Shown here: piece by piece, positions 51,870-62,496 of the stretch | Position numbering within the stretch: the stretch's first letter is position 1 | Layout of the letters: every line of letters starts with the position of its first letter | Origin: Limnochorda sp. L945t | Lineage (GTDB): Bacteria; Bacillota; Limnochordia; Limnochordales; Geochordaceae | DNA: 64,000 nt | Reading direction: 5' to 3' | NCBI RefSeq assembly: GCF_035593305.1 | Contig: NZ_CP141615.1 | Location: forward strand, 744,001 to 808,000 | The notes under the pieces: model-generated | What the model was told of the DNA's origin: nothing | The model's database searches: none | Seen by the model: the letters and a program-made list of their open reading frames with translations, nothing else | Program-made: the position numbers and the translations under genes

Positions 51870-52022
51870 CTGCTGCAGGATCGCCCGGGGCACCCGGTGG
51901 GGTCTTCCGGCGCCGGGATGAATCGGTTTACGACCTTCGGATGATGGGTGGGCACCTCGACAGGAGTAGACGAAATCGAGGGGCTCGGCTATACTGCCCC
52001 CGGGCCGAGGGGAGAAAGTCAG

Positions 52023-52469
52023 GTGAGCGAGCAGCCCTGGAGAGACCGGCTCGAGCGATCGCTTCAGAAGGCTGTCCAGCAGATTGCGTCCCGGTACCGG
52101 CCGGCACGCATCATCCTCTTCGGCTCCCTTGCCCGAGGAGACGTCCACGAGGACAGTGACATCGACCTCCTGATCATCAAGCAGACAGACCGGCCGTTTC
52201 TGAAGCGAATCGACGATGTTCTGGCCGTCCTCGATACCGAGGTACCGGTAGAGCCCATTGTGTACACGGAACACGAATTCGAGCGCCTGGCACGCGAGGG
52301 ACGCGATTTCATCGCCACGATCCTCAGGGAAGGCAGGGTCCTCTACGACTGCCGACATGGATCAGAATCGCCGCGAGGCCGAGCGTTGGCTCAGCTACAT
52401 CCCCACCCGCTACCCCGACGCGCTCCCGGACGAAAACCCGCACGAAGCATTCGGGGCCGAGGATGCTGA
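52023..52469 (+). CDS. Minimal nucleotidyltransferase (MNT antitoxin type)
   Basis: 148 aa. ARIILFGSLARGDVHEDSDIDLLII carries the GS-x10-DxD catalytic motif of MNT proteins, which in MNT-HEPN pairs neutralise the HEPN RNase by AMP-transfer or binding. EPIVYTEHEFERLAREGRDFIATILREGRVLYD is the usual C-terminal end; beyond it, about 38 residues (CRHGSESPRGR...) run over the start of the HEPN gene in another frame and look non-native. GTG start with GAGGGGAGAAAG. The HEPN partner at 52357 starts inside this frame. Confidence 0.82.
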   Translation: MSEQPWRDRLERSLQKAVQQIASRYRPARIILFGSLARGDVHEDSDIDLLIIKQTDRPFLKRIDDVLAVLDTEVPVEPIVYTEHEFERLAREGRDFIATILREGRVLYDCRHGSESPRGRALAQLHPHPLPRRAPGRKPARSIRGRGC

Positions 52470-52551
52470 CGACGCCATACGCCGTGCGGACAATGTGCTT
52501 CGGGCCGTGAAGGCGGCGATGGCCTCCCGGGAACCGGGCGCGAATCCATAG
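52357..52551 (+). pseudogene. HEPN-domain protein with the catalytic core deleted
   Basis: 64 codons. It starts MDQNRREAERWL, the standard first helix of HEPN domains, and then jumps directly to SYIPTRYPDALPDENPHEAFGAEDADDAIRRADNVLRAVKAAM, the standard last helices (TRYPDA.p...f..edA..A...a..v). The middle, about 75 residues with the R-x4-6-H RNase motif, is gone in frame. The result cannot act as a HEPN toxin. ATG overlaps the end of the MNT gene. Confidence 0.78.
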
Positions 52552-52622
52552 TGCGAGCAGGGCCCGCAGGTATGGCGGGTGCGAATCGGCAAGGCGGCAG
52601 GCGACCGAGCGGGGGCCGGCTC

Positions 52623-53732
52623 GTGAGTTCGGCGGCCGGCGTGAGAGGCGCGCGGTTGGCGGCCCGAGTGCCGTTCATGGCCGCGGCGGGGCTGGCCCTG
52701 GTGGTGGCGGGCCTGGTGGGGCTCGTTCGCATGGGGTGGGTGCTCCCCGCCCTGTCGCCGGCCCTGGTCGCCCGGCACGGCCCCCTCATGGTGAGCGCGT
52801 TCCTCGGCACCCTCATCAGCCTGGAGCGGGCGGTGGGGCTCGGCAAGAGCTGGGCGTATGTGGCCCCGGCGTTCGGGGCGGCCGGCTCGGTGATGCTCCT
52901 GGCCGGGCTGCCCGACCTGGTGGCGGCCGCCGTCTTCTCGGCGGCCGCCACCACGCTCGTCGCCGCCTTCGGGGCCATCTACCGGATCCGGCCCAACCGG
53001 CCCAACGCCGTCCTGGCCCTCGCCGCCGCCATGTGGCTGGGCGGCAACGTGGCATGGGGCGCCGGCGTTGCCATGCCCCTGGTCGTGGTATGGTGGTCGG
53101 CGTTCCTGGTGCTCACCATCGCCGGCGAACGCCTCGAGCTTGCGCGCATCCGCACGCGCGCTGCGCTCGCCGAACTCGCGTTTTTCGCGGCTTCCGGGGC
53201 GGTCGCCCTGGGCCCTGTCATCTCCCTGGCGACCGCCCCCGCGGGGATTGCCGTCACGGGGGCCGGGCTGGCCGGGCTCGGCGCATGGCTCGTGCGGTAC
53301 GACATCGCGTGGCGCACCGTCCGGCTTCCCGGCTTGAGCCGCTACATCGCCTGGTGCTTGCTGCCCGGGTACTTCTGGCTCATCGCCGGGGGCGTCGCCT
53401 GGGTGCTCGGGCCCGGCGTCTGGGGTGGCGGGGTCTACTACGACGCCATGCTGCACGCGGTCTTCCTGGGGTTCGTGATGTCCATGATCTTCGGGCACGC
53501 GCCCGTCATCGTGCCGGCGCTTCTCGGTGTCCCCGTGCCGTACTCCCGCCGCTTGTACGCTCCGCTCGTGCTGCTGCACGCCTCCCTCGTCAGCCGCATC
53601 GCGGGTGACCTGCTGCTCTGGATGCCGCTCCGCCTCTGGAGCGGGATTGCCAACGTGGTGGCAGTGCTCGGCTTCCTGGCGGTGCTGGCCCTGACGGCAC
53701 GGACGGCGGGGCGCCTCTCTTCCCAGAAGTAG
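52623..53732 (+). CDS. NnrS-like multi-helix membrane protein
   Basis: About 369 aa with 10-12 predicted helices. The region YYDAMLHAVFLGFVMSMIFGHAPVIVPALLGVPVPYSRRLYAPLVLLHASLVSRIAGDLL resembles NnrS-family proteins (heme-copper membrane proteins of the nitric-oxide and denitrification response), with His residues in equivalent places (LHAVFLGF, FGHAP, LHAS). Start uncertain: GTG 52623 has GGGGG seven bases upstream; the frame is open back to 52551, where a GTG overlaps the HEPN remnant's stop. Function beyond the family is unknown. Confidence 0.65.
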   Translation: MSSAAGVRGARLAARVPFMAAAGLALVVAGLVGLVRMGWVLPALSPALVARHGPLMVSAFLGTLISLERAVGLGKSWAYVAPAFGAAGSVMLLAGLPDLVAAAVFSAAATTLVAAFGAIYRIRPNRPNAVLALAAAMWLGGNVAWGAGVAMPLVVVWWSAFLVLTIAGERLELARIRTRAALAELAFFAASGAVALGPVISLATAPAGIAVTGAGLAGLGAWLVRYDIAWRTVRLPGLSRYIAWCLLPGYFWLIAGGVAWVLGPGVWGGGVYYDAMLHAVFLGFVMSMIFGHAPVIVPALLGVPVPYSRRLYAPLVLLHASLVSRIAGDLLLWMPLRLWSGIANVVAVLGFLAVLALTARTAGRLSSQK

Positions 53733-53894
53733 AGGACGAAGCAGAGGACATGACGCCGGCTCAGTCGAACCTGCGTTCCCCGCGGCCTTGACACCCGGCC
53801 GGTGCGCCGGAATGATTGGCAACGAGTGGAAACGACGGATCAGCTACGGCTGGCTGCGGGCGAGTGGCGAGCCTCGAGGAAAAGGTGGTGCGAG

Positions 53895-54812
53895 ATGGCC
53901 GCTATCGTGGTGGAAGGGCTCGTCAAGCGGTATCAGGATCTGGTGGCCGTCGACGGCGCCAGCTTCATGGTCGAGGAGGGGGAGATCTTCGCGCTACTCG
54001 GGCCCAACGGCGCTGGCAAGACCACGACGCTCGAAATCCTGGAGGGCCTGCGCACGGCGGACGCGGGGAGGGTGGAGGTGGCGGGCGTCGACGTGCGTCG
54101 CCACCCGCGGCAGGTGAAGGCGCGTATCGGGGTCCAATTGCAGGACGCCGGGTTCTTCAACTTGCTCACCGTGCAGGAGACGGTGGGCCTGTTTGCCAGC
54201 TTCCATCCCCATCCCCGCCCGGTGGAGAGCGTGCTCGAAGAGCTGAGCCTCCAGGAAAAGCGCCGGGCTCTGGTGCGGGATCTGTCGGGAGGGCAGCGCC
54301 AGCGACTCTCCATCGCGTGCGCCCTGGTGGGCGACCCGCAGATCCTCTTCCTCGATGAACCGACCACGGGCCTCGACCCACAGGCCCGGCGGGCGCTGTG
54401 GGAGGTGATCCGGGAGATCCGCAACCGGGGGCGTACGGTGGTGCTCACCACCCACTACATGGAAGAGGCCGAGGCGCTGTGCGATCGGGTGGCCATCATG
54501 GATCACGGGCGGTTGCTGGCCGCCGGCACTCCCGATGAACTCATCGGCCGGTTCGTGCCGGAAGACCGCATTCACATCGCCCTCGAGCCGCGGGCGGGCA
54601 GCGCCGCCGTCGAGTCGCTGCCGGGCGTCAGCCGCGTGGAGAAGGGCGAGAACGGGACGGTGGTTCTGGTCACCCGGCAGGCCTCGCTCGTGCTGCAACA
54701 CCTGGTCTCGATTGCATCGGACGGCCAGCTGGACCTGGGCAGCCTCCGGGTCGACCGGGGCACTCTGGAGGACGTTTTCCTGCAGCTCACCGGGCGCAGG
54801 TTGCGGGATTGA
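53895..54812 (+). CDS. ABC-2 type transporter ATP-binding protein (CcmA family)
   Basis: 305 aa. IFALLGPNGAGKTTTLEILEGLRTADAGRVEVAGVDV (Walker A), GVQLQDAGFFNLLTVQETV (Q-loop), LSGGQRQRLSIACAL (signature), QILFLDEPTTGLDPQARRALWEVI (Walker B and D-loop), VVLTTHYMEEAEALCDRVAIMDHG (switch His). The C-terminal ~60 residues are the usual dimer extension. Drug, lipid or polysaccharide export is typical for the family. ATG 53895 with GAGGAAAAGGTGG upstream; the permease gene starts 14 bp after its stop. Confidence 0.93.
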   Translation: MAAIVVEGLVKRYQDLVAVDGASFMVEEGEIFALLGPNGAGKTTTLEILEGLRTADAGRVEVAGVDVRRHPRQVKARIGVQLQDAGFFNLLTVQETVGLFASFHPHPRPVESVLEELSLQEKRRALVRDLSGGQRQRLSIACALVGDPQILFLDEPTTGLDPQARRALWEVIREIRNRGRTVVLTTHYMEEAEALCDRVAIMDHGRLLAAGTPDELIGRFVPEDRIHIALEPRAGSAAVESLPGVSRVEKGENGTVVLVTRQASLVLQHLVSIASDGQLDLGSLRVDRGTLEDVFLQLTGRRLRD

Positions 54813-54826
54813 AGGGCGGGCGTACC

Positions 54827-55936
54827 ATGCGAGGCTTTCTTGCGGTCGCAGCCATGAGCTTCCGGGTGTGGTGGCGGGACCGGTCGTCCGCTTTCTGGGG
54901 CGTGATCCTGCCTCTCATGTTGATGGGACTCCTCGGTAGCGCGTTCGGGCGGCCCGAGTCGATGACCTTCACGGTGGCGTTCGTCGGGCCGGCGGCCCCG
55001 GGGGCGGGCAATGTTCCAGGTTCGCTGGAACCGGTCATCCGGCAGGCGCTGGGCGCCGTTCCGGTCCTCAAAGTCGTGGATGAACCCCGGGCGCAGGCCC
55101 TGGCTGCCCTGCGCAAGGGCAACCGGACCCTGGTGGTGGAGGTAGCCCCGGCGACGCCGGATGGGACGGCGGGCGCTGGGCGGCTTCTCAGGGTCGACCT
55201 CTACTTCGACGAGGCGCACGAGCAGACGGGGCAGGCCGCCATGGCGGTGGTACAGGAGGTGCTGCGGCGGATCGAGCAGGCCATGACCGGTGCTCCCCGG
55301 CTCTTTTCCGTGTCGACGCACTCGGTGTCGGGGCGGCAGTTTCGCATGTTCGACTTCCTGCTGCCGGGTGTCATGGCCATGAGCATCATGCAGACGGGGC
55401 TCATGGGCGTGAGCTGGTCCATCGCCGACTACCGGGAGCGAAGAGTCCTCAAACGGGTACTGGCCACCCCCTTTCACCCCATGGGATTCCTGGGAGGGTT
55501 GTTGACCCGGTTCACGCTGGTGACGCTGCTGCAGTCTGCGCTCATCTTCGCCGTCGGCGTGTACGGGTTCGGGGCGAAGGTCGTCGGGAGCGTATGGCTG
55601 CTCTTCTTGCTGGCCGCCCTGGGGTCCATGGCGTTCTTGTCCGTGGGTCTGGCCATCTCCACGCTGGCCCCCACCGCGGAGTCGGCCAACATCCTCGGAA
55701 GCCTGCTCAACTTCCCCATGATGTTCCTCTCGGGCACCTTCTGGCCGAAGGACATCATGCCGGCGTTCATGCAGCCCATCGTGGGAGTACTGCCGCTCAC
55801 GCCGCTGATCGACAGCATGCGGGCGGTCGCCACGGAGGGGGCGAGCCTGGCCCCGTATGCAGGAGGGCTTGCCTACCTGGCGGCGTGGGGAGCGGTAGCT
55901 CTCGCCATGGCCGCCTGGCGGTTCCGGTGGGAGTGA
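54827..55936 (+). CDS. ABC-2 type transporter permease
   Basis: 369 aa. One N-terminal helix (FWGVILPLMLMGLLGSAF), a large extracytoplasmic domain (about 50-170), then five helices typical of ABC2_membrane_3: MFDFLLPGVMAMSIMQTGLMGVSWSIADYRERRVLKRVLATPF, LLTRFTLVTLLQSALIFAVGV, MAFLSVGLAISTLAPTAESANILGSLLNFPMMFLSGTFWP, and PLIDSMRAVATEG. Partner of the ATPase encoded just upstream. ATG with GAAGGGCGGG ahead of it. Confidence 0.9.
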   Translation: MRGFLAVAAMSFRVWWRDRSSAFWGVILPLMLMGLLGSAFGRPESMTFTVAFVGPAAPGAGNVPGSLEPVIRQALGAVPVLKVVDEPRAQALAALRKGNRTLVVEVAPATPDGTAGAGRLLRVDLYFDEAHEQTGQAAMAVVQEVLRRIEQAMTGAPRLFSVSTHSVSGRQFRMFDFLLPGVMAMSIMQTGLMGVSWSIADYRERRVLKRVLATPFHPMGFLGGLLTRFTLVTLLQSALIFAVGVYGFGAKVVGSVWLLFLLAALGSMAFLSVGLAISTLAPTAESANILGSLLNFPMMFLSGTFWPKDIMPAFMQPIVGVLPLTPLIDSMRAVATEGASLAPYAGGLAYLAAWGAVALAMAAWRFRWE

Positions 55937-56540
55937 CAGGCCCGTCGAGCCGCTGGCTGAGCCGTCGCAGCCCGGGCGCCAGGCTCACGTCGCCCACGAC
56001 CTGATACGACGCGGCCGCCGCCGCCAGGTACCCGTCGGCCGTCTGCACCACCGCCGCCGCCACCCAGCGGCCGGCCGGCACCTCGAGCTCCGCCCAGGCG
56101 CTCCCTTCCTGCTGCGTGGGGCCGGCCACCTCCATCTCCGTCGCCGACCCTGGGCCGCCCCACGGCCCCCAGTACAGGCGCACGGACCGCACGGGGCGGT
56201 CGCTCCGAAAGCCCAGGATGACCCAAACCGAGCCGGCCGGCACCGGCTTGTCCTGGGCCGGCTGCAAGAAGCGGATCTGGACACTTCCCGGCGGCGCCAG
56301 CCGTACCTTCCCCTTGGGGTCGGTGGGTTCGATGGCCGCACTGACGCGCCCGTCGGTGCCGCGGACGACCAAGCGGGTGGAGGGCACGAAGTCGAGCAGC
56401 GCTACCAGGGCGACGTCGCCCGGCGGCGGGCTGGCGGCGAAAGAGGGCGTAGCGGCCACCGGGCTCAGGACCAACAGGATGCCGGCGCAGCACCCCAGCA
56501 CCGGTACTCCTCCCGGGTTGCGCCCCAACTTGCCAGGCAT
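55797..56540 (-). CDS. Secreted protein of unknown function
   Basis: 247 aa. ATG 56540 with GGAGG seven bases upstream; signal peptide about 1-35 (VPVLGCCAGILLVLSPVAATPSFA). The mature part (about 36-185) is beta-rich: VALVALLDFVPSTRLVVRGTDGRVSA, SVQIRFLQPAQDKPVPAGSVWVILGF and SAWAELEVPAGRWVAAAVVQTADGYLAAAAASYQVVGD, suggesting two immunoglobulin-like layers. No family recognised. The last ~45 residues run antisense to the end of the ABC-2 permease and are Pro-rich, so the natural stop may have been lost. A perfect AGACGT-CGAA-ACGTCT palindrome lies at 56565-56580 in its leader. Confidence 0.55.
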   Translation of the reverse strand: MPGKLGRNPGGVPVLGCCAGILLVLSPVAATPSFAASPPPGDVALVALLDFVPSTRLVVRGTDGRVSAAIEPTDPKGKVRLAPPGSVQIRFLQPAQDKPVPAGSVWVILGFRSDRPVRSVRLYWGPWGGPGSATEMEVAGPTQQEGSAWAELEVPAGRWVAAAVVQTADGYLAAAAASYQVVGDVSLAPGLRRLSQRLDGPVTPTGTARRPWRELPLPTPPGRQALLHTGPGSPPPWRPPACCRSAA

Positions 56541-56924
56541 GGTCCAACCTCCGTCACGCAGCTCAGACGTCGAAACGTCTCGGACGGGCAGGGACCTTCG
56601 GCGCCTTCGTCGCCGACCCTTCAGCGAGAGCAGAGCCTTGCAGGACGGGCTTCGGGCGACCATGGTCCTCGGCGACCTGGTCGAGCCGGGACGCCTTGCG
56701 GGGCGGTCGTGGACGGGTCACGCAGGAGACTTCGCATTGCCGTCGTAGTGCAAACCGGGCCGGACGAACGTTCCAAGGGAAGTGCCGGGGGGATGCGCCC
56801 GTGCCCAATGACCGGAGCGCCGAGCAGCAGCGCCGGGCGTCCGAGCACCGGCAGGCCGTGGAGACAGTGAAGCGAGCTACCGGCGCCTTCGGATACCCTT
56901 GGTTTGAAGAAGGGGGGCTCCGGC
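56541..56924. other. Intergenic region with a short palindrome
   Basis: 384 bp between divergent genes. The only clear structure is AGACGT-CGAA-ACGTCT at 56565-56580, 25 bp before the minus-strand start codon, a candidate operator or leader hairpin. No gene or RNA is supported. Confidence 0.5.
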
Positions 56925-58076
56925 GTGGCCCAGATTCGGCTCCTGGTGGGCACCAGCAAGGGAGGTTTTCTCTTCACTTCGGACGCGTCCCGGCGGCGAT
57001 GGGACGTAGCCGGGCCGCTGTTCGAGGGGTGGGAGGTGTACCATCTCTACGCCTTGCCAGGCGACCCCGACCGCCTGTGGGCGTCGTTGTGGACGCCCTG
57101 GTACGGCAACGTGATCCAGACGAGCGGGGACGGGGGCCGGACGTGGCAGGTGGCGGGAGGCGAGTTCCGGCTGGAGCCCCCCATTGCCGCGTACAAGAGC
57201 CTGGGCGGCGCCACGCAGCCGTGGCAGTTCCGCCGGGTCTGGCGGTTTGCCTCGCCACCTTCCGCAAGCGGGGACGGGAACGCTCCCACGGGAGGCCCGG
57301 GGGTGCTCTTCGCAGGCGCTGAAGATGCGGCGCTGTTTCGTTCCGAGGATGGCGGCCGGACGTGGCGTGAGCTCGCGGCCCTGCGCCACCACCCGACCCA
57401 CGAGGCCTGGGAGCCAGGCGCCGGCGGCCTTTGCCTGCATACGCTCGGCTTCGACCCTACCCGTCCTGGCCGGATGTTGGTCGCCATCTCGGCGGCCGGG
57501 GTCTTCCGGTCGGACGATGGAGGTGCGACCTGGAGACCGGCCAACCGGGGCCTTTACGCCTCGCATACCGCCGATTCGCAACCCGAGGCGGGCTACTGCG
57601 TGCACTCACTGGTGCTGCACCCGGCCCGCCCGGAGGTCGTCTACATCCAGGCTCACTCCGGCGTCTACCGGAGCGACGACGCCGGGGAGAGCTGGCGTAA
57701 CGTCTCCGAGGGTCTGCCGTCTCCCTTCGGATTTCCGATTGCCGTGCACGCTCATGACCCGGACACCGTCTACGTGGTACCCATGAAAGACGACGAGCGG
57801 CATTTCCCGGTCGACGGAGCGCTTCGAGTGTGGCGCAGCCGGGATGGCGGCGGCACGTGGGAGCCGCTCTCGGACGGGCTGCCCGGCCGGCATTTCTACG
57901 GCAACGTGCTGCGTGGCGCGATGGCAGTGGACACGCTGTATCCTTGCGGCCTCTACTTCGGCACGACGACCGGGGAGGTCTACGCCAGCGCCGACGAAGG
58001 CGACTCGTGGGAGGCCGTCGCGCTGCACCTGCCTCGCATCCTTTCGGTCGAGGCGCACACCGTGGGGGCGCAATGA
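56925..58076 (+). CDS. BNR/sialidase-like beta-propeller protein
   Basis: 383 aa, no signal peptide. At least five Asp-box-type repeats with the SxDxGxTW pattern: TSGDGGRTWQVAGGEF, RSEDGGRTWRELAAL, RSDDGGATWRPANRG, RSDDAGESWRNVSEGLP, RSRDGGGTWEPLSDGLPG, and ASADEGDSWEAVALHLP. This makes a six- to eight-bladed propeller of the exo-alpha-sialidase-like or VPS10-like group; sialidase catalytic residues cannot be confirmed. GTG 56925 has AAGGGGGG upstream. It is translationally coupled to the MoaD-like gene (1 bp between stop and next start), a pairing I recall from other genomes without a known role. Confidence 0.8.
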   Translation: MAQIRLLVGTSKGGFLFTSDASRRRWDVAGPLFEGWEVYHLYALPGDPDRLWASLWTPWYGNVIQTSGDGGRTWQVAGGEFRLEPPIAAYKSLGGATQPWQFRRVWRFASPPSASGDGNAPTGGPGVLFAGAEDAALFRSEDGGRTWRELAALRHHPTHEAWEPGAGGLCLHTLGFDPTRPGRMLVAISAAGVFRSDDGGATWRPANRGLYASHTADSQPEAGYCVHSLVLHPARPEVVYIQAHSGVYRSDDAGESWRNVSEGLPSPFGFPIAVHAHDPDTVYVVPMKDDERHFPVDGALRVWRSRDGGGTWEPLSDGLPGRHFYGNVLRGAMAVDTLYPCGLYFGTTTGEVYASADEGDSWEAVALHLPRILSVEAHTVGAQ

Positions 58077-58077
58077 G

Positions 58078-58422
58078 GTGGACCCACTGCCCGGCAAGAT
58101 CCGGGTCATCCTCCCGGGACACCTGTGCCGCCTGGCCGGGCTTCAGGGGCGCGTGGTCGAGGTCCCCGTCTCGGAGCTCACCCCCGGCGTCCCGGAGCCT
58201 ACCCTCGGGACCGTGCTCGAAGAGCTCGAGCGGGCCCACCCGGCGCTGCGCGGCACCCTCATGGAGATTCGCGCCGGAGCCCCGGCCCGGCTGCGGCCCT
58301 ACCTGCGGGCCTTCGCCGCCTCGATAGACCTCACACCGGCAGGTCTCGACGCCACCCTTCCCCCTGAGGTTGGCTTGGGAGAGGAGCCCCTGCGGGTCGT
58401 TGGGGCCATCGCCGGGGGGTAG
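58078..58422 (+). CDS. MoaD/ThiS-like ubiquitin-fold protein
   Basis: 114 aa with a beta-grasp pattern: KIRVILPGHLCRLAGLQGRVVEVPV, TLGTVLEELERAHPALRGTL, and a C-terminal LRVVGAIAGG ending in Gly-Gly, as needed for adenylation, thiocarboxylation or conjugation. Compared with MoaD (about 80 aa) it has an extra helical section (ARLRPYLRAFAASIDLTPAG). GTG start 1 bp after the propeller gene's stop. No MoeB/ThiF-like activating enzyme is seen in the window; it could be encoded elsewhere. Confidence 0.8.
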   Translation: MDPLPGKIRVILPGHLCRLAGLQGRVVEVPVSELTPGVPEPTLGTVLEELERAHPALRGTLMEIRAGAPARLRPYLRAFAASIDLTPAGLDATLPPEVGLGEEPLRVVGAIAGG

Positions 58423-58540
58423 GCGGGACAACGGCGCGGAGAGGCCGGGAAGGGATCGGGAGCGGCCAACCGAACCCGACGGCATAACGTCGTTCGGGTC
58501 CTTCGAGGATCCGGAGGACCGGCGGATGGCACTCGGCCCG

Positions 58541-58831
58541 TCAGCAGCCCTGGCGGCTCACCACGGTTTCGCAGCGGGAGGCGGGCCACACCTCGACACT
58601 GCCGGCCTGGGCGAACGGCTGCATGAACGCCTCGACCTTCTCCCGCCCGTCCGCCTCGACGATGAGGTAAAGGGTATGCTGCCCGTCGACCACCCCTTCT
58701 CCATGGAGCGTGATGCCGTGCTGCCGGGCATTCGCTTCGCTCAGGTGGCGCAGGAGCATCATCCCCATCCGCGGATCCCTGGCGGGGCAACTCTCGGGCG
58801 GGTGCTGGTGACGCACGACGAAGAGGGCCAT
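58541..58831 (-). CDS. Small cytoplasmic protein, unrecognised
   Basis: 96 aa. MALFVVRHQHPPESCPARDPRMGMMLLRHLSEANARQHGITLHGEGVVDGQHTLYLIVEADGREKVEAFMQPFAQAGSVEVWPASRCETVV suggests an alpha/beta ferredoxin-like (ACT/dimeric barrel) fold with conserved HxHPPESCPA and two further Cys (SRCETVV, SRQGC). ATG with GGAGGTGG seven bases upstream, so well supported as coding. Divergent from the MBL-fold gene. I recall close relatives in other phyla but not a function. Confidence 0.7.
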   Translation of the reverse strand: MALFVVRHQHPPESCPARDPRMGMMLLRHLSEANARQHGITLHGEGVVDGQHTLYLIVEADGREKVEAFMQPFAQAGSVEVWPASRCETVVSRQGC

Positions 58832-58855
58832 GGAACCCACCTCCGTGAACATGGT

Positions 58856-58902
58856 GCCGACAGTATGCCGACAGTATAATCGGTCCCAACGCGGCGCGGC
58901 AA
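58856..58902. promoter_or_regulatory. Divergent promoter region with an 11-bp tandem repeat
   Basis: GCCGACAGTAT is repeated back to back (58856-58866, 58867-58877) and runs into a perfect TATAAT (58875-58880) on the plus strand, with no good -35 on that strand. On the minus strand TTGCCG (58902-58897), an 18-bp spacer and TATACT (58878-58873) form a promoter for the small protein gene. The repeated 11-mer overlaps both -10 boxes and could be a regulator site. Confidence 0.55.
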
Positions 58903-58961
58903 AGGCACGACGCTCCGGCCCGTGCGGACGGAAGACAGGGCAGGTGGAAGGTGAGGCGGGC

Positions 58962-59876
58962 ATGAAGGTAGAGATCTTGGGGAGCGGCGGGGCTTTCCGG
59001 ACGCCCAGGCCCGGGTGCAGCTGCTCCGTGTGCACCCAGGCGAGAGAGCGCGGGGTCCCTTACGCCCGCAGCGGCCCGGGGATCTTCGTCCACGGGCCCG
59101 GCGTGCTCATCGACACGTCGGAAGACATCTACATGCAGCTCGACCGAGCCCGGCTGCCGGCCATACGCGCCGGGCTCTACTCCCACTGGCACCCCGACCA
59201 CACGATGGGCCGGCGGGTGTGGGAAACCCTCAACGCGGACCAGCGACGTTTACCGACGCGGCACCGGCGCACAGACGTGTACGTGCCCCAGGGGGTGCTC
59301 GAGGACTTCCGCCGCTTCGGGCTGATGGGGCACTTCGAATTCCTGGCGGAGCGATGGATCAACCTGCACGCCATGGATCCCTGGCGCCCCTACGACGTGA
59401 ACGGCTACGCCATCGTGGCCGTGCCGCTTGCCATGGAGCGTACCTACGCCTTCCTGATCGAAGGCCCGCTCGAGGTCGCCGTGCCTGGCCCGGCGAGGCA
59501 GACCGGACGGCTTTTCGTGGCCATGGACGAGCTCCACGGGTGGAGGCCCCCCGAGGCCGTCCGGGGAGTCGACCTGGCGGTGCTGCCGGCGGGCATCTTC
59601 GACGTCGACCCGTTCACGGGAGAGCGCAACATGGCGCCCGAGCACCCGCTCCTGAAGGAGGAAGCCACGTTCGACGAGGTGCTCGCTTGCGCCCGGGCGC
59701 TCGGGGCGGGAAAGGTCGTCCTCAGCCACATCGAGGAGCCCGACGGCTTGAGCTATGACGCCCTGCGGCGGCTGGAGGAGAGGGAGGACGTACGGGCGCT
59801 GTCGATCACGTTCGCCTACGATACCCGGGTGATCGAGGTTGCCCGGGGGAGCGCCCCAGCGCTGTCCGGGCAGTGA
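58962..59876 (+). CDS. MBL-fold hydrolase (PhnP-like)
   Basis: 304 aa. MKVEILGSGGAFRTPRPGCSCSVCTQARERGVPYAR is the PhnP-type start, with Cys residues that often bind an extra zinc; SHWHPDHTMGRR is the metallo-beta-lactamase zinc motif; LPAGIFDVDPFTGERNMAPEHPLLKEEATFDEVLACARALGAGKVVLSHIEE completes the fold with the last metal ligand near the end. PhnP hydrolyses cyclic phosphate; here the substrate is unknown. ATG with AGGTGAGG upstream. Confidence 0.85.
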   Translation: MKVEILGSGGAFRTPRPGCSCSVCTQARERGVPYARSGPGIFVHGPGVLIDTSEDIYMQLDRARLPAIRAGLYSHWHPDHTMGRRVWETLNADQRRLPTRHRRTDVYVPQGVLEDFRRFGLMGHFEFLAERWINLHAMDPWRPYDVNGYAIVAVPLAMERTYAFLIEGPLEVAVPGPARQTGRLFVAMDELHGWRPPEAVRGVDLAVLPAGIFDVDPFTGERNMAPEHPLLKEEATFDEVLACARALGAGKVVLSHIEEPDGLSYDALRRLEEREDVRALSITFAYDTRVIEVARGSAPALSGQ

Positions 59877-59945
59877 CGGCGTCACGGGCCCTGGCACCAC
59901 CCGTTCCGGCAGCGGCAAGCCTGCAGCGGCCTGCGCGAGCGCCGG

Positions 59946-60194
59946 CTAGCGCGCCAGTTTGCGCTGCACGAACCCTCTGGCCTGCTCCTCAGTGGGGACG
60001 TGGCCGGCCGAGACGAGCTCGCCGTCGATGACCACTGCCGGTGTGAACATCACCCGGCGCCGCCGGATCTCCAGCGGGTCGGTCACGTGCAGTACCTCGG
60101 CCTGAATGCCGAGTCCGGCGAGCGCCTGCCGCACCACCTGTTCGGTTGCTTTGCACTTGGGGCACCCGGTGCCCAGGATCTCCACGCGCATCAT
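59946..60194 (-). CDS. Small thioredoxin-like redox protein (CPKC)
   Basis: 82 aa: MRVEILGTGCPKCKATEQVVRQALAGLGIQAEVLHVTDPLEIRRRRVMFTPAVVIDGELVSAG. CPKC is the redox motif; the conserved cis-Pro is in FTPAVVIDG. Fits the small glutaredoxin-like family that sits beside DUF318 permeases and ArsR regulators. Probably reduces a cysteine in the permease or a metalloid compound. Last gene of the minus-strand operon, 53 bp after the permease. Confidence 0.88.
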   Translation of the reverse strand: MMRVEILGTGCPKCKATEQVVRQALAGLGIQAEVLHVTDPLEIRRRRVMFTPAVVIDGELVSAGHVPTEEQARGFVQRKLAR

Positions 60195-60247
60195 CCCATG
60201 CTCCCTTCGACGTCAAGGCCGGGTCTGCCCGGCCGCGCCTTTGCGCG

Positions 60248-61333
60248 TCAAAACAGCCAGTTACCCGCCGCCCACGCCCAGGCGGTCGCCAGGGCGACCG
60301 TGACCGCCACGTACACGGTCGCCTTCCTTGCCCCGAAGACTCGGCCGATGGTCAGCATGCTCGGTAGGCTGAGCCCCGGCCCGGCGAGCAGAAGCCCGAG
60401 CGCCGGCCCTTTACCCATGCCGAGCTCCATGAGCCGCGCCACGAACGGCGCCTCGGTCATCGTGGCAAAGTAGCTCACGGCCCCGATGAGCGTGGCGGCG
60501 AACGACGCCCCCAATCCCGACCCGCCCAGCCAGCGCTGCACCCACTCCGGCGGAAGCAGGGCCGCGATGACGCCCACGGCAAAGACGCCGGCGAGCAAGG
60601 TGGGCACGATCAAGCGCACGAACCACCACGTCTCGTGCAGCCACGCGCTCCATCGCTCTCGCTCCAGGCGCCACCGAGCCCATGCGAAGGCCGCGCTCAT
60701 GGGGACCGCCCAGACGGACACCTTTACCCAGTACGGCCCCGTCCGAACCAGGTAGTTAGGAGCCAGGAGGCTGATAGCCAGCAGCGCCATGAGCACGATG
60801 CCGGCCCGGTCCGCAAAGGCGCCTAGGCCCGGGGCGGGCGCGGACTCGCCGGGCGGGTCGAGGGTGGCAGCCGGCTCCGTCCCCGCCGCCCGAGCGGCCT
60901 CCGAGCGCCAGAAGGCCCAGGTCATCACGAACCCTACCACGAGAGCGGTGGACATCGCGGCCACCAGCCGGACGACCGCCATCGAACCCCCGAGCACGGA
61001 AGCCGTGTAGGAGAGCGCCAGGACGTTGGCGGCCGGCGCCACCCATAGCACGATGAACGCCGCCCCGATCCCGGCGCCACCGTAGTAGAGCCCGCTTGCC
61101 ACGGGAATGACGGTGCACGAGCAAGCCGCGACGAAGACGCTGCCGATGGCGGAAGCCACGAACGAGCGCAGGCGATGGGTGGCGCTGCCCAGGTAGGCGG
61201 CAATCGCCTCTTTCGACACCAGGCTCACCATCGCGCCGGCCAGCAGGAAGGCCGGCACGAGGCACGTGAGCACGTGCAGCGCGACGTACTCCTCGAGCGC
61301 TCGCAGCCCGGCGAGGAGGAGTTGCCCGATCAT
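60248..61333 (-). CDS. Permease, DUF318/ArsP type
   Basis: 361 aa with about eight to ten helices. SVFVAACSCTVIPVASGLYYGGAGIGAAFIVLWVAPAANVLALSYTASVLG contains the conserved Cys pair (SCT) seen in permeases that export trivalent organoarsenicals or related substrates; GAVSYFATMTEAPFVARLMELGMGKGPALGLLLAGPGLSLPSML is the second repeat. Overlaps the ArsR gene by 4 bp (ATGA) and precedes the thioredoxin gene. Substrate is inferred from family only. Confidence 0.85.
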   Translation of the reverse strand: MIGQLLLAGLRALEEYVALHVLTCLVPAFLLAGAMVSLVSKEAIAAYLGSATHRLRSFVASAIGSVFVAACSCTVIPVASGLYYGGAGIGAAFIVLWVAPAANVLALSYTASVLGGSMAVVRLVAAMSTALVVGFVMTWAFWRSEAARAAGTEPAATLDPPGESAPAPGLGAFADRAGIVLMALLAISLLAPNYLVRTGPYWVKVSVWAVPMSAAFAWARWRLERERWSAWLHETWWFVRLIVPTLLAGVFAVGVIAALLPPEWVQRWLGGSGLGASFAATLIGAVSYFATMTEAPFVARLMELGMGKGPALGLLLAGPGLSLPSMLTIGRVFGARKATVYVAVTVALATAWAWAAGNWLF

Positions 61334-61707
61334 CCAAGGTCATCTCCTTGCGTGGTGAGCCAACCTGCCGCAGCACCCGCCGCGCACCGCGGGCACCGGC
61401 ACGAAGTGGGACCCGGCGGTGTCGGGGGCACAGGCTGCAGCCCTACGGCATCGAGAAGGGCCGGGACGCGGGGGTTGGCCAGCCGGTAGAGCACGTAAAG
61501 CCCGTCGCGGCGGGCCTTGACGATCCCGGCCCGCCGGAGCACCGCAAGATGCTGGGAGACCGCCGCCTGGCGCAGGCCCAGCGTGGCCGTCAGGTGGCAA
61601 ACGCACGCCTCACTCCTGGCCAGCTCCAGGACGATGCGAAGGCGGTCTTGGTGACCGAGAGCCCGTAGCAGCCGGGCCGCTTTCCGCGGCGAAGAGCTAT
61701 TCAACAT
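61330..61707 (-). CDS. ArsR-family metalloregulator with Cys-rich tail
   Basis: 125 aa. Winged helix: SPRKAARLLRALGHQDRLRIVLELARSEACVCHLTATLGLRQAAVSQHLAVLRRAGIVKARRDGLYVLYRLA, with the ACVCHL metal-binding motif on the sensing helix. The C-terminal tail has CRCPRCAAG, giving extra thiols. It should leave DNA on binding arsenite, antimonite or a similar metal. ATG 61707 opens the conserved part; there is no ribosome site, and AT-rich DNA (CTATATCGTATATT) sits just upstream, so the transcript may be nearly leaderless and the operator may overlap the start. Confidence 0.85.
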   Translation of the reverse strand: MLNSSSPRKAARLLRALGHQDRLRIVLELARSEACVCHLTATLGLRQAAVSQHLAVLRRAGIVKARRDGLYVLYRLANPRVPALLDAVGLQPVPPTPPGPTSCRCPRCAAGAAAGWLTTQGDDLG

Positions 61708-61878
61708 TGCGAATATACGATATAGCTTTTCGATGGGCCTCGGCCAGGGCAAGGTGTCCCGGTCATCGGTCCCTTGGAGCCCCCCCGCTCATGCCCGGGC
61801 GGCCTGCCAGATGGACCGGAGGTCCTGGCGCAACGAGCCGCGCCCCCCGATACCGTGGCAACGAAGGGGGCGACGCAG

Positions 61879-62496
61879 TTGGCGCCAATGGGTGTCTACA
61901 GCTCGCGCTGTGAGGAGTGCATCGACTCGCAGGTCCTGCCCACGCTGGAGCGCCGCGGGGTGGCCGGTCCACCGGGCCCCCCGGGGCCATCCGGGCCACC
62001 CGGTCCTCCTGCCGACGTGTTCGACCCGGCGACGCTGTCCCGGGTCGAAGGCCGTGCGTTCGCGGCCACGTCCGGCCCGCTGCCGGGTAACCCCAACCAG
62101 GTGGCACAAATCGTCCTGGTCAACCCGCCGGGCTCGCCGGTCGTCCTGCAGCTGGTCGAGTGGTCGTTGCTGGCGAGCACGCAGTTCTTCGGCGGCGAGG
62201 GGCGCTTGCGGCTGTTGACGGGGGTCGATCCTTCCGGCGTGCCGTCCATCCCGGTCGTCTCCACCAACACGGCAGTGCCGAGAGCATCGCAGACGTCGGC
62301 TCATGCGGGCGTTGTCGACGCGCTTGCCACGGGGACGAAGCTACTGGACACGGACGTGCTGGGAGGAATCCTCTACCAACCCCAGGTCCCTTCCGTCTGG
62401 GTGGTGGCTCCGGGCACCAACCTCGCCTTCACTTACGAGACGGACGGCACCTTCGTCGCGTACTTCGTCGCGATATGGGTCGAGGTCCCCGTCTGA
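61879..62496 (+). CDS. Collagen-like protein with C-terminal globular domain
   Basis: About 205 aa. The N-terminal part (SSRCEECIDSQVLPTLERRG) has two Cys and then five Gly-x-y triplets (GPPGPPGPSGPPGPP). The rest is a beta-rich globular domain (VLVNPPGSPVVLQLVEWSLLASTQFFGGEGRLRLLTGVDPSG ... NLAFTYETDGTFVAYFVAIWVEVPV), probably a trimerising head. No signal peptide, as in some exosporium or phage-tail proteins. TTG 61879 has AAGGGGG nine bases upstream; the ATG at 61888 is an alternative. Single copy here, no phage genes near. Confidence 0.65.
   Translation: MAPMGVYSSRCEECIDSQVLPTLERRGVAGPPGPPGPSGPPGPPADVFDPATLSRVEGRAFAATSGPLPGNPNQVAQIVLVNPPGSPVVLQLVEWSLLASTQFFGGEGRLRLLTGVDPSGVPSIPVVSTNTAVPRASQTSAHAGVVDALATGTKLLDTDVLGGILYQPQVPSVWVVAPGTNLAFTYETDGTFVAYFVAIWVEVPV

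Follow-up and report, generated by a model that had tools for sequence, protein, structure and literature searches.

A BNR-type beta-propeller is paired in four phyla with a Gly-Gly-ending ubiquitin-like protein and is a candidate acceptor in sulfur transfer

The two genes studied here lie next to each other in a 64,000-nucleotide stretch of the Limnochorda sp. L945t genome (contig NZ_CP141615.1, positions 744,001 to 808,000; the window, in whose numbering positions are given unless a contig or locus is named). The features of the locus are as follows.

56925 to 58076, plus strand: BNR/Asp-box beta-propeller gene (Pfam matches and a match to PDB 3b7f)
58078 to 58422, plus strand: gene for a MoaD/CysO-like beta-grasp protein of 114 amino acids, with a GTG start and a C-terminal Gly-Gly (assigned from relatives and fold)
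58074 to 58080, plus strand: junction TGA-G-GTG, leaving a 1-bp gap
58414 to 58419, plus strand: terminal Gly-Gly codons (Gly-Gly retained in 131/134 paired relatives)
56907 to 56917, plus strand: Shine-Dalgarno-like AAGAAGGGGGG ahead of GTG 56925 (by eye)

Read from TTG 56904, the propeller frame spans 390 amino acids, and from GTG 56925, 383 amino acids; it stops at the TGA at 58074 to 58076. The GTG is the likelier start, because AAGGGGGG precedes it and because it agrees with the start sites of relatives. The protein matched the Pfam families Sortilin-Vps10, BNR, and BNR_2 above their cut-offs, and no signal peptide was apparent by eye. Its closest solved relative was PDB 3b7f (2e-65), matched over residues 10 to 384, i.e., the whole propeller. 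This structure, Reut_B4987 of Ralstonia eutropha JMP134, belongs to the same propeller family and is titled "putative glycosyl hydrolase with BNR repeats," a title that names no tested function. The small gene ends in the residues AIAGG followed by a stop. A sequence-only reading of this DNA had described a propeller gene and a Gly-Gly MoaD-like gene separated by 1 bp, and the coordinates bear this out (56925 to 58076 and 58078 to 58422, same strand). Judging from strand and spacing, the two genes would share one transcript, and their translation is probably coupled across the gap.

The same reading had seen no molybdenum or thiamine genes nearby, and this held: none of the 10 ORFs scanned on both sides of the pair (52551 to 62493) matched a molybdenum or thiamine family, with 3 of the 10 matching nothing, and none had a Pfam match to cysteine synthase, JAMM, E1, or E2. 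One ORF (61774 to 62493), which matched no Pfam family, contains a run of collagen-like Gly-Pro-Pro repeats. At 51948 to 52469, a nucleotidyltransferase-like frame (GSLARGDVHEDSDIDLL) is followed by a small frame; we presume that the two may form an MNT/HEPN-type pair.

On its own, the small protein matched no Pfam or NCBIfam model at an E value of ≤1, and it was not among the matches when its own genome was scanned with PF02597 (ThiS); the label MoaD-like therefore depends on relatives and fold. Within its family, PF02597 was matched by 52 of the 62 aligned members, and the family profile found the CysO chains 4n6e (2.9e-20) and 3dwg (7e-20). An AlphaFold2 model of the window protein (pLDDT 91.1, pTM 0.84) was compared using Foldseek, and the top rows were SAMP1 of Haloferax volcanii (best, E value = 5.7e-5, and, unlike the window protein, archaeal), CysO, and MoaD-related proteins, with Urm1 weaker. 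With a predicted beta-grasp fold and a C-terminal Gly-Gly, and without a PF02597 match of its own, the protein was filed as a putative divergent relative of the MoaD/ThiS/CysO sulfur-carrier proteins; we refer to it as the carrier.

We placed the carriers in a tree of 76 rows, where ThrC-linked carriers and other carriers of sampled or unpaired genomes formed the comparison set. The propeller-linked carriers fell mostly apart from both (2 label changes versus a shuffled mean of 23.8); this tree rests on 93 columns, its deep forks are poorly resolved, and it settles a single origin neither way. Many of the other carriers from unpaired genomes lie near a JAMM gene, as judged by coordinates. A MoaD/ThiS-like gene adjoins a threonine-synthase-like gene in the window genome itself (L001, 1498 to 3248; G000:C1 at about 825 kb), and a ThrC-like neighbour, named by reading the sequence, is found in 14 more loci (L174, L175, L178, L179, and L181 to L190). 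At another locus (L194, G745:C3), a Gly-Gly-ending carrier domain is continuous with E1-like sequence in one open frame (by eye).

Across 159 propeller genes, a MoaD-like gene lay within 400 nt on the same strand in 134, from Bacillota, Actinomycetota, Chloroflexota, and, in plasmid records, Pseudomonadota; the carrier profile used had been refined on hits from the same loci that it scored. The carrier was downstream in 93 cases and upstream in 41 (30 separate and 11 fused in frame). Among the remaining 25 propellers, 1 was at a contig end and 24 had no carrier within 400 nt, where automatically fetched loci had flanks of only 1.5 kb and a carrier farther off would escape detection; a carrier-like gene lies 919 nt from the propeller at L150 (genome G803). 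For Actinomycetota, 70 of 79 places were fetched, and for Chloroflexota 72 of 129, in each phylum the top 30 together with selected lower-ranking ones. The set was completed by 2 more loci of the window's own phylum and 17 first homologues or plasmids, and the truncated L012 and the duplicates L024, L028, and L057 were excluded from the 159. By group, the pairing was present in 12/17 first homologues and plasmids, 2/2 of the own phylum, 57/69 in Actinomycetota, and 63/71 in Chloroflexota. It is also visible in homologues from public genomes, where the neighbours are annotated as "MoaD/ThiS family protein" and as "exo-alpha-sialidase" or hypothetical.

At an E value of ≤1e-40, the propeller was found in 3/299 genomes of the window's phylum (window genome counted), 77/296 of Actinomycetota (the phylum of G300, a Nonomuraea relative), and 101/251 of Chloroflexota (the phylum of G303, Anaerolineales). 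The best 17 of 28 matching plasmid records included 12 paired ones, 2 from Actinomycetota and 10 from beta- or gammaproteobacteria, with the carrier first in all ten. The 5 unpaired records were one from Streptomyces, three from Rhodobacterales (L015, L016, and L022, with no carrier detected within 6 kb), and one distant Roseomonas match. Two loci have unusual propeller genes: L148 (3001 to 5477) has two in tandem followed by a single carrier gene, and on Paraburkholderia phymatum pBPHY01 (L205, 1495 to 2618) the propeller gene is spread over three frames, being either broken or affected by a sequence error.

In an 80-row tree of the propellers, the fewest changes needed were 4 for gene order, 4 for fused versus split, 6 for paired versus unpaired, and 13 for exact versus extended tail; the tree was built by a quick method with SH-aLRT only and has 26 of 77 inner branches starred, and, with weak support at some of the forks concerned, the true minimum may be lower. 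The pairing is real and widespread, and its persistence through re-ordering and fusion is the strongest evidence for a shared function. The neighbourhood survey that the sequence-only reading had called for thus showed adjacency beyond chance (134/159 relatives, both orders, 11 fusions), and the proposal that it had staked on adjacency in other genomes stands.

Crude ORF calls clustered in 161 loci, with flanks of 1.5 to 6 kb at most of them, gave no third conserved neighbour, and in these flanks conservation next to the pair was found for no E1, JAMM, E2/E3-like, cysteine synthase, or sulfur gene. The largest extra cluster (29 loci) strung together unrelated ABC, sensor, and permease frames, the next ones (10 loci) look like carrier-antisense frames, and the rest hold at most 6 loci; none was retained.

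Gly-Gly is kept at the end of the carrier domain in 131 of the 134 paired carriers, including 11/11 fusion junctions. An exact Gly-Gly end is present in 87, 23 have 1 to 6 extra residues, 10 have longer tails, 11 are fused, and 3 have none; of these last, L035 leaves its contig, and the motif is truly missing from L014 and from L087, which is a second copy in G300. In the near-identical relative L005, a Limnochordaceae MAG (Bacillota in NCBI taxonomy), the G run at the carrier stop (58414 to 58422; about 7510 to 7515 in L005) is one base shorter, which removes the stop there and gives L005 its long tail. This difference is probably a homopolymer error in one assembly, and other long tails may also be sequence errors. 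Over 110 codons, the carriers of the window and L005 differ by 8 nonsynonymous and 3 synonymous changes, and the two propellers differ by 6 nonsynonymous and 10 synonymous changes; at these small numbers, recent constraint on the window's carrier copy is not visible.

All 11 fusions have the order carrier, Gly-Gly, linker, propeller and read A(I/V)SGG ahead of a linker of 4 to 24 residues. Their carrier parts are 37 to 97% identical (in L115, the contig start cuts within the carrier), and they belong to one actinobacterial clade of 26 rows, intermixed with split forms. We modelled one natural fusion, L103 (pLDDT 93.9, pTM 0.80). The sole segment of at least 3 residues with a pLDDT below 50 was 83 to 86, Ile-Ser-Gly-Gly; no docked carrier pose was seen in the model, and a pTM of about 0.80 might be expected if the carrier floated beside a rigid propeller. 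Passages of three papers describe comparable ends: in MoaX, cleavage between Gly82 and Ser83 is required (PMC4326299), MoaD-MoaE is cut by DRJAMM (PMC8832034), and a genome with one JAMM encodes two thioplatensimycin carriers that have a cap after Gly-Gly (PMC6006322).

These ends bear on whether the carrier is activated at all. It could instead be a stable beta-grasp subunit, for which TmoB offers a comparison (passages of PMC1779556), with a Gly-Gly tail that merely docks and no need for a thiocarboxylate at any point. Such a subunit would suit the 11 fusions and 33 extended tails in which Gly-Gly is not C-terminal (one of them, L005, probably a sequence error), the paired carriers L014 and L087 that lack the motif, and the lack of a conserved neighbouring E1. 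Retention in 131/134 is nevertheless above expectation for a floppy tail, and the Ile-Ser-Gly-Gly junction of the L103 model, its only segment below a pLDDT of 50, is undocked; we consider a purely structural role unlikely.

We next turn to the enzymes that activation would involve. The ThiF/MoeB partner whose search the sequence-only reading had suggested does exist in the window genome, as a single E1 gene, and lies outside the window, 19 kb from the pair (C1:821569-822273). The E1 frame contains the motif GAGGLG, and its C-terminus looks rhodanese-like by eye; the gene is less than 3 kb from a ThiS-like gene that itself comes after a threonine-synthase-like gene. The genome's own JAMM match is at C1:915437 (27.9 bits). 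We searched 80 of the 181 propeller-bearing genomes (76 shown paired, 1 unpaired, and 3 outside the pairing check) and 80 of the 369 without a propeller at 1e-40. E1 scored above its cut-off in 79/80 versus 64/80 and JAMM in 76/80 versus 53/80. When only genomes of 2 Mb or more were compared, E1 was no longer enriched (77/78 versus 55/57, P value = 0.57, counted by hand and with kinship ignored), so that E1 presence is not informative, and E1 was rejected as a predictor of the propeller. The JAMM enrichment in this size class was modest (74/78 versus 45/57, P value = 0.006, counted by hand and with kinship ignored). JAMM was present in 43/43 genomes with capped or fused carriers and in 68/74 with exact Gly-Gly ends (one-sided P value = 0.059).

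Close linkage of E1 and propeller is rare: an E1 was within about 3 kb in 2/80 genomes, by coordinates read by eye. In G612 (L167, G612:C7), the distances to the propeller are about 2 kb for E1 and about 4 kb for JAMM, and in G727 (L168, G727:C17), E1 is under 1 kb away. The co-occurrence data agree weakly with activation and processing in trans. MoeZR is described as thiocarboxylating CysO in passages of PMC3227635.

E1 and JAMM could also serve conjugation: the E1-activated Gly-Gly would be joined to lysines, the propeller would be the principal target or an adaptor, and JAMM would remove the modifier, as with SAMP1 and HvJAMM1 in archaea. SAMP1 is the top fold match of the window carrier, JAMM occurs in 76/80 propeller-bearing genomes, and propeller residue 19 is Lys in 147/159; yet it is Arg in 11/159, the flanks clustered above showed no conserved E2- or E3-like gene, and a single dedicated kind of partner suits a client better than a general modifier. 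To our knowledge, SAMP-type systems need no E2 or E3. Taken together, we find conjugation doubtful. Co-inheritance of neighbours without a shared function is highly improbable: 24/159 propellers lack the neighbour, but adjacency outlasts order changes and fusion over four phyla, which passive linkage does not explain.

The propeller itself carries a strongly conserved set of residues. Over the 159 propellers, His179, His234, Gln249, and Arg337 are invariant, and His251 (158), Cys232 (150, with Asp in 7), and Lys19 (147, with Arg in 11) are nearly so. The propeller part of the L103 model matched 3b7f with a Z of 50.6 and an rmsd of 1.8 over 350 residues, and the next fold rows were GH74 at a Z of about 27. 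By its predicted strands, with topology assigned by eye, the conserved residues are near the starts of innermost strands or the ends of the next strands. In propellers, these starts and ends face one side, and the conserved residues may form one site; with a Cys or Asp and three His residues, it would be a candidate metal or catalytic site. Unpaired propellers (24 counted, with the edge case L010 in and the first L148 copy out) keep the site residues at 92 to 100%, and a linked carrier may thus be dispensable for the chemistry; carrier-like genes are encoded in 18/18 unpaired genomes searched.

Several known systems resemble the pair in part. In MoaD-MoaE, including MoaX and DRMoaD-MoaE, a Gly-Gly beta-grasp carrier likewise lies beside or is fused N-terminally to its partner, with Gly-Gly at the junction, but the partner here is a BNR propeller instead of MoaE, and no molybdenum family occurs among the 10 scanned neighbours. 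As for CysO-CysM-Mec+ and BexX/CysO, CysO chains are the carrier's best profile matches and are among its fold matches. E1 and JAMM in most genomes searched are a further likeness to CysO-CysM-Mec+; however, cysteine synthase was not found as a conserved neighbour, and the tree mostly separates the propeller-linked carriers from others. Bacterial ubiquitin-like conjugation operons (E1, E2, JAMM, and Ubl) differ in having E1 and E2 beside the Ubl, which were not found among the 10 neighbours of this pair. Passages of PMC1796856 report a Clostridium protein in which an SLBB beta-grasp domain and a beta-propeller are fused; both folds share one protein, as in the fusions here, but SLBB is of another superfamily and is described there as ligand-binding and at the cell surface, and those passages describe no Gly-Gly carrier pair. 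The terms propeller, WD40, BNR, and sialidase are absent from the text of the archaeal survey PMC2948915, as are propeller, BNR, sialidase, neuraminidase, and glycosyl hydrolase from that of PMC1779556; the lone "propeller" in PMC1949818 is in a figure key. Among the literature matches listed, no title concerned the propeller-carrier pair.

The propeller and the Gly-Gly ubiquitin-like protein probably cooperate in a sulfur-transfer or protein-tagging step. We put at about one half the probability that they form a dedicated sulfur-carrier/acceptor module like MoaD-MoaE or CysO-CysM, with the propeller as acceptor and E1 and JAMM acting in trans. In such a module, the propeller would be the carrier's client, in the place of MoaE or CysM. 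The genome's E1 would adenylate and thiocarboxylate the Gly-Gly end, the thiocarboxylated carrier would dock on the propeller, and sulfur would pass to a substrate at the conserved site (Lys19, His179, Cys/Asp232, His234, Gln249, His251, and Arg337). Carriers with a cap or a fusion partner would first have their Gly-Gly freed by a JAMM protease, as in MoaX and the MoaD-MoaE fusions. Complex formation, thiocarboxylation, and cleavage of the carrier are what we infer. Of the conjugation or sulfur-transfer system envisaged by the sequence-only reading, the link between propeller and carrier is now strongly supported, and the chemistry is only plausible. That reading had offered target, scaffold, or activator as the role of the propeller; activator is the least likely, because the genome has a normal E1, and target, scaffold, and acceptor remain candidates.

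More speculatively, and with little confidence, the propeller could be an enzyme of sulfur (or protein-tag) chemistry that holds a metal or substrate at His179, Cys/Asp232, His234, and His251 and receives sulfur from its own carrier, which in one actinobacterial lineage would be made as a JAMM-processed carrier-propeller precursor. Ubiquitin is similarly made as a fusion to ribosomal proteins. The fusions can discriminate between an activated and a structural tail: if the Gly-Gly is cut free, activation is needed, and if it stays uncut, the tail is structural.

Bacterial ubiquitin-like carriers have a short list of known partners. A propeller partner that occurs in four phyla or more, with the genes in either order or fused, would add a new acceptor fold to that list and would assign a role to proteins that currently carry the labels exo-alpha-sialidase, sialidase family, or hypothetical.
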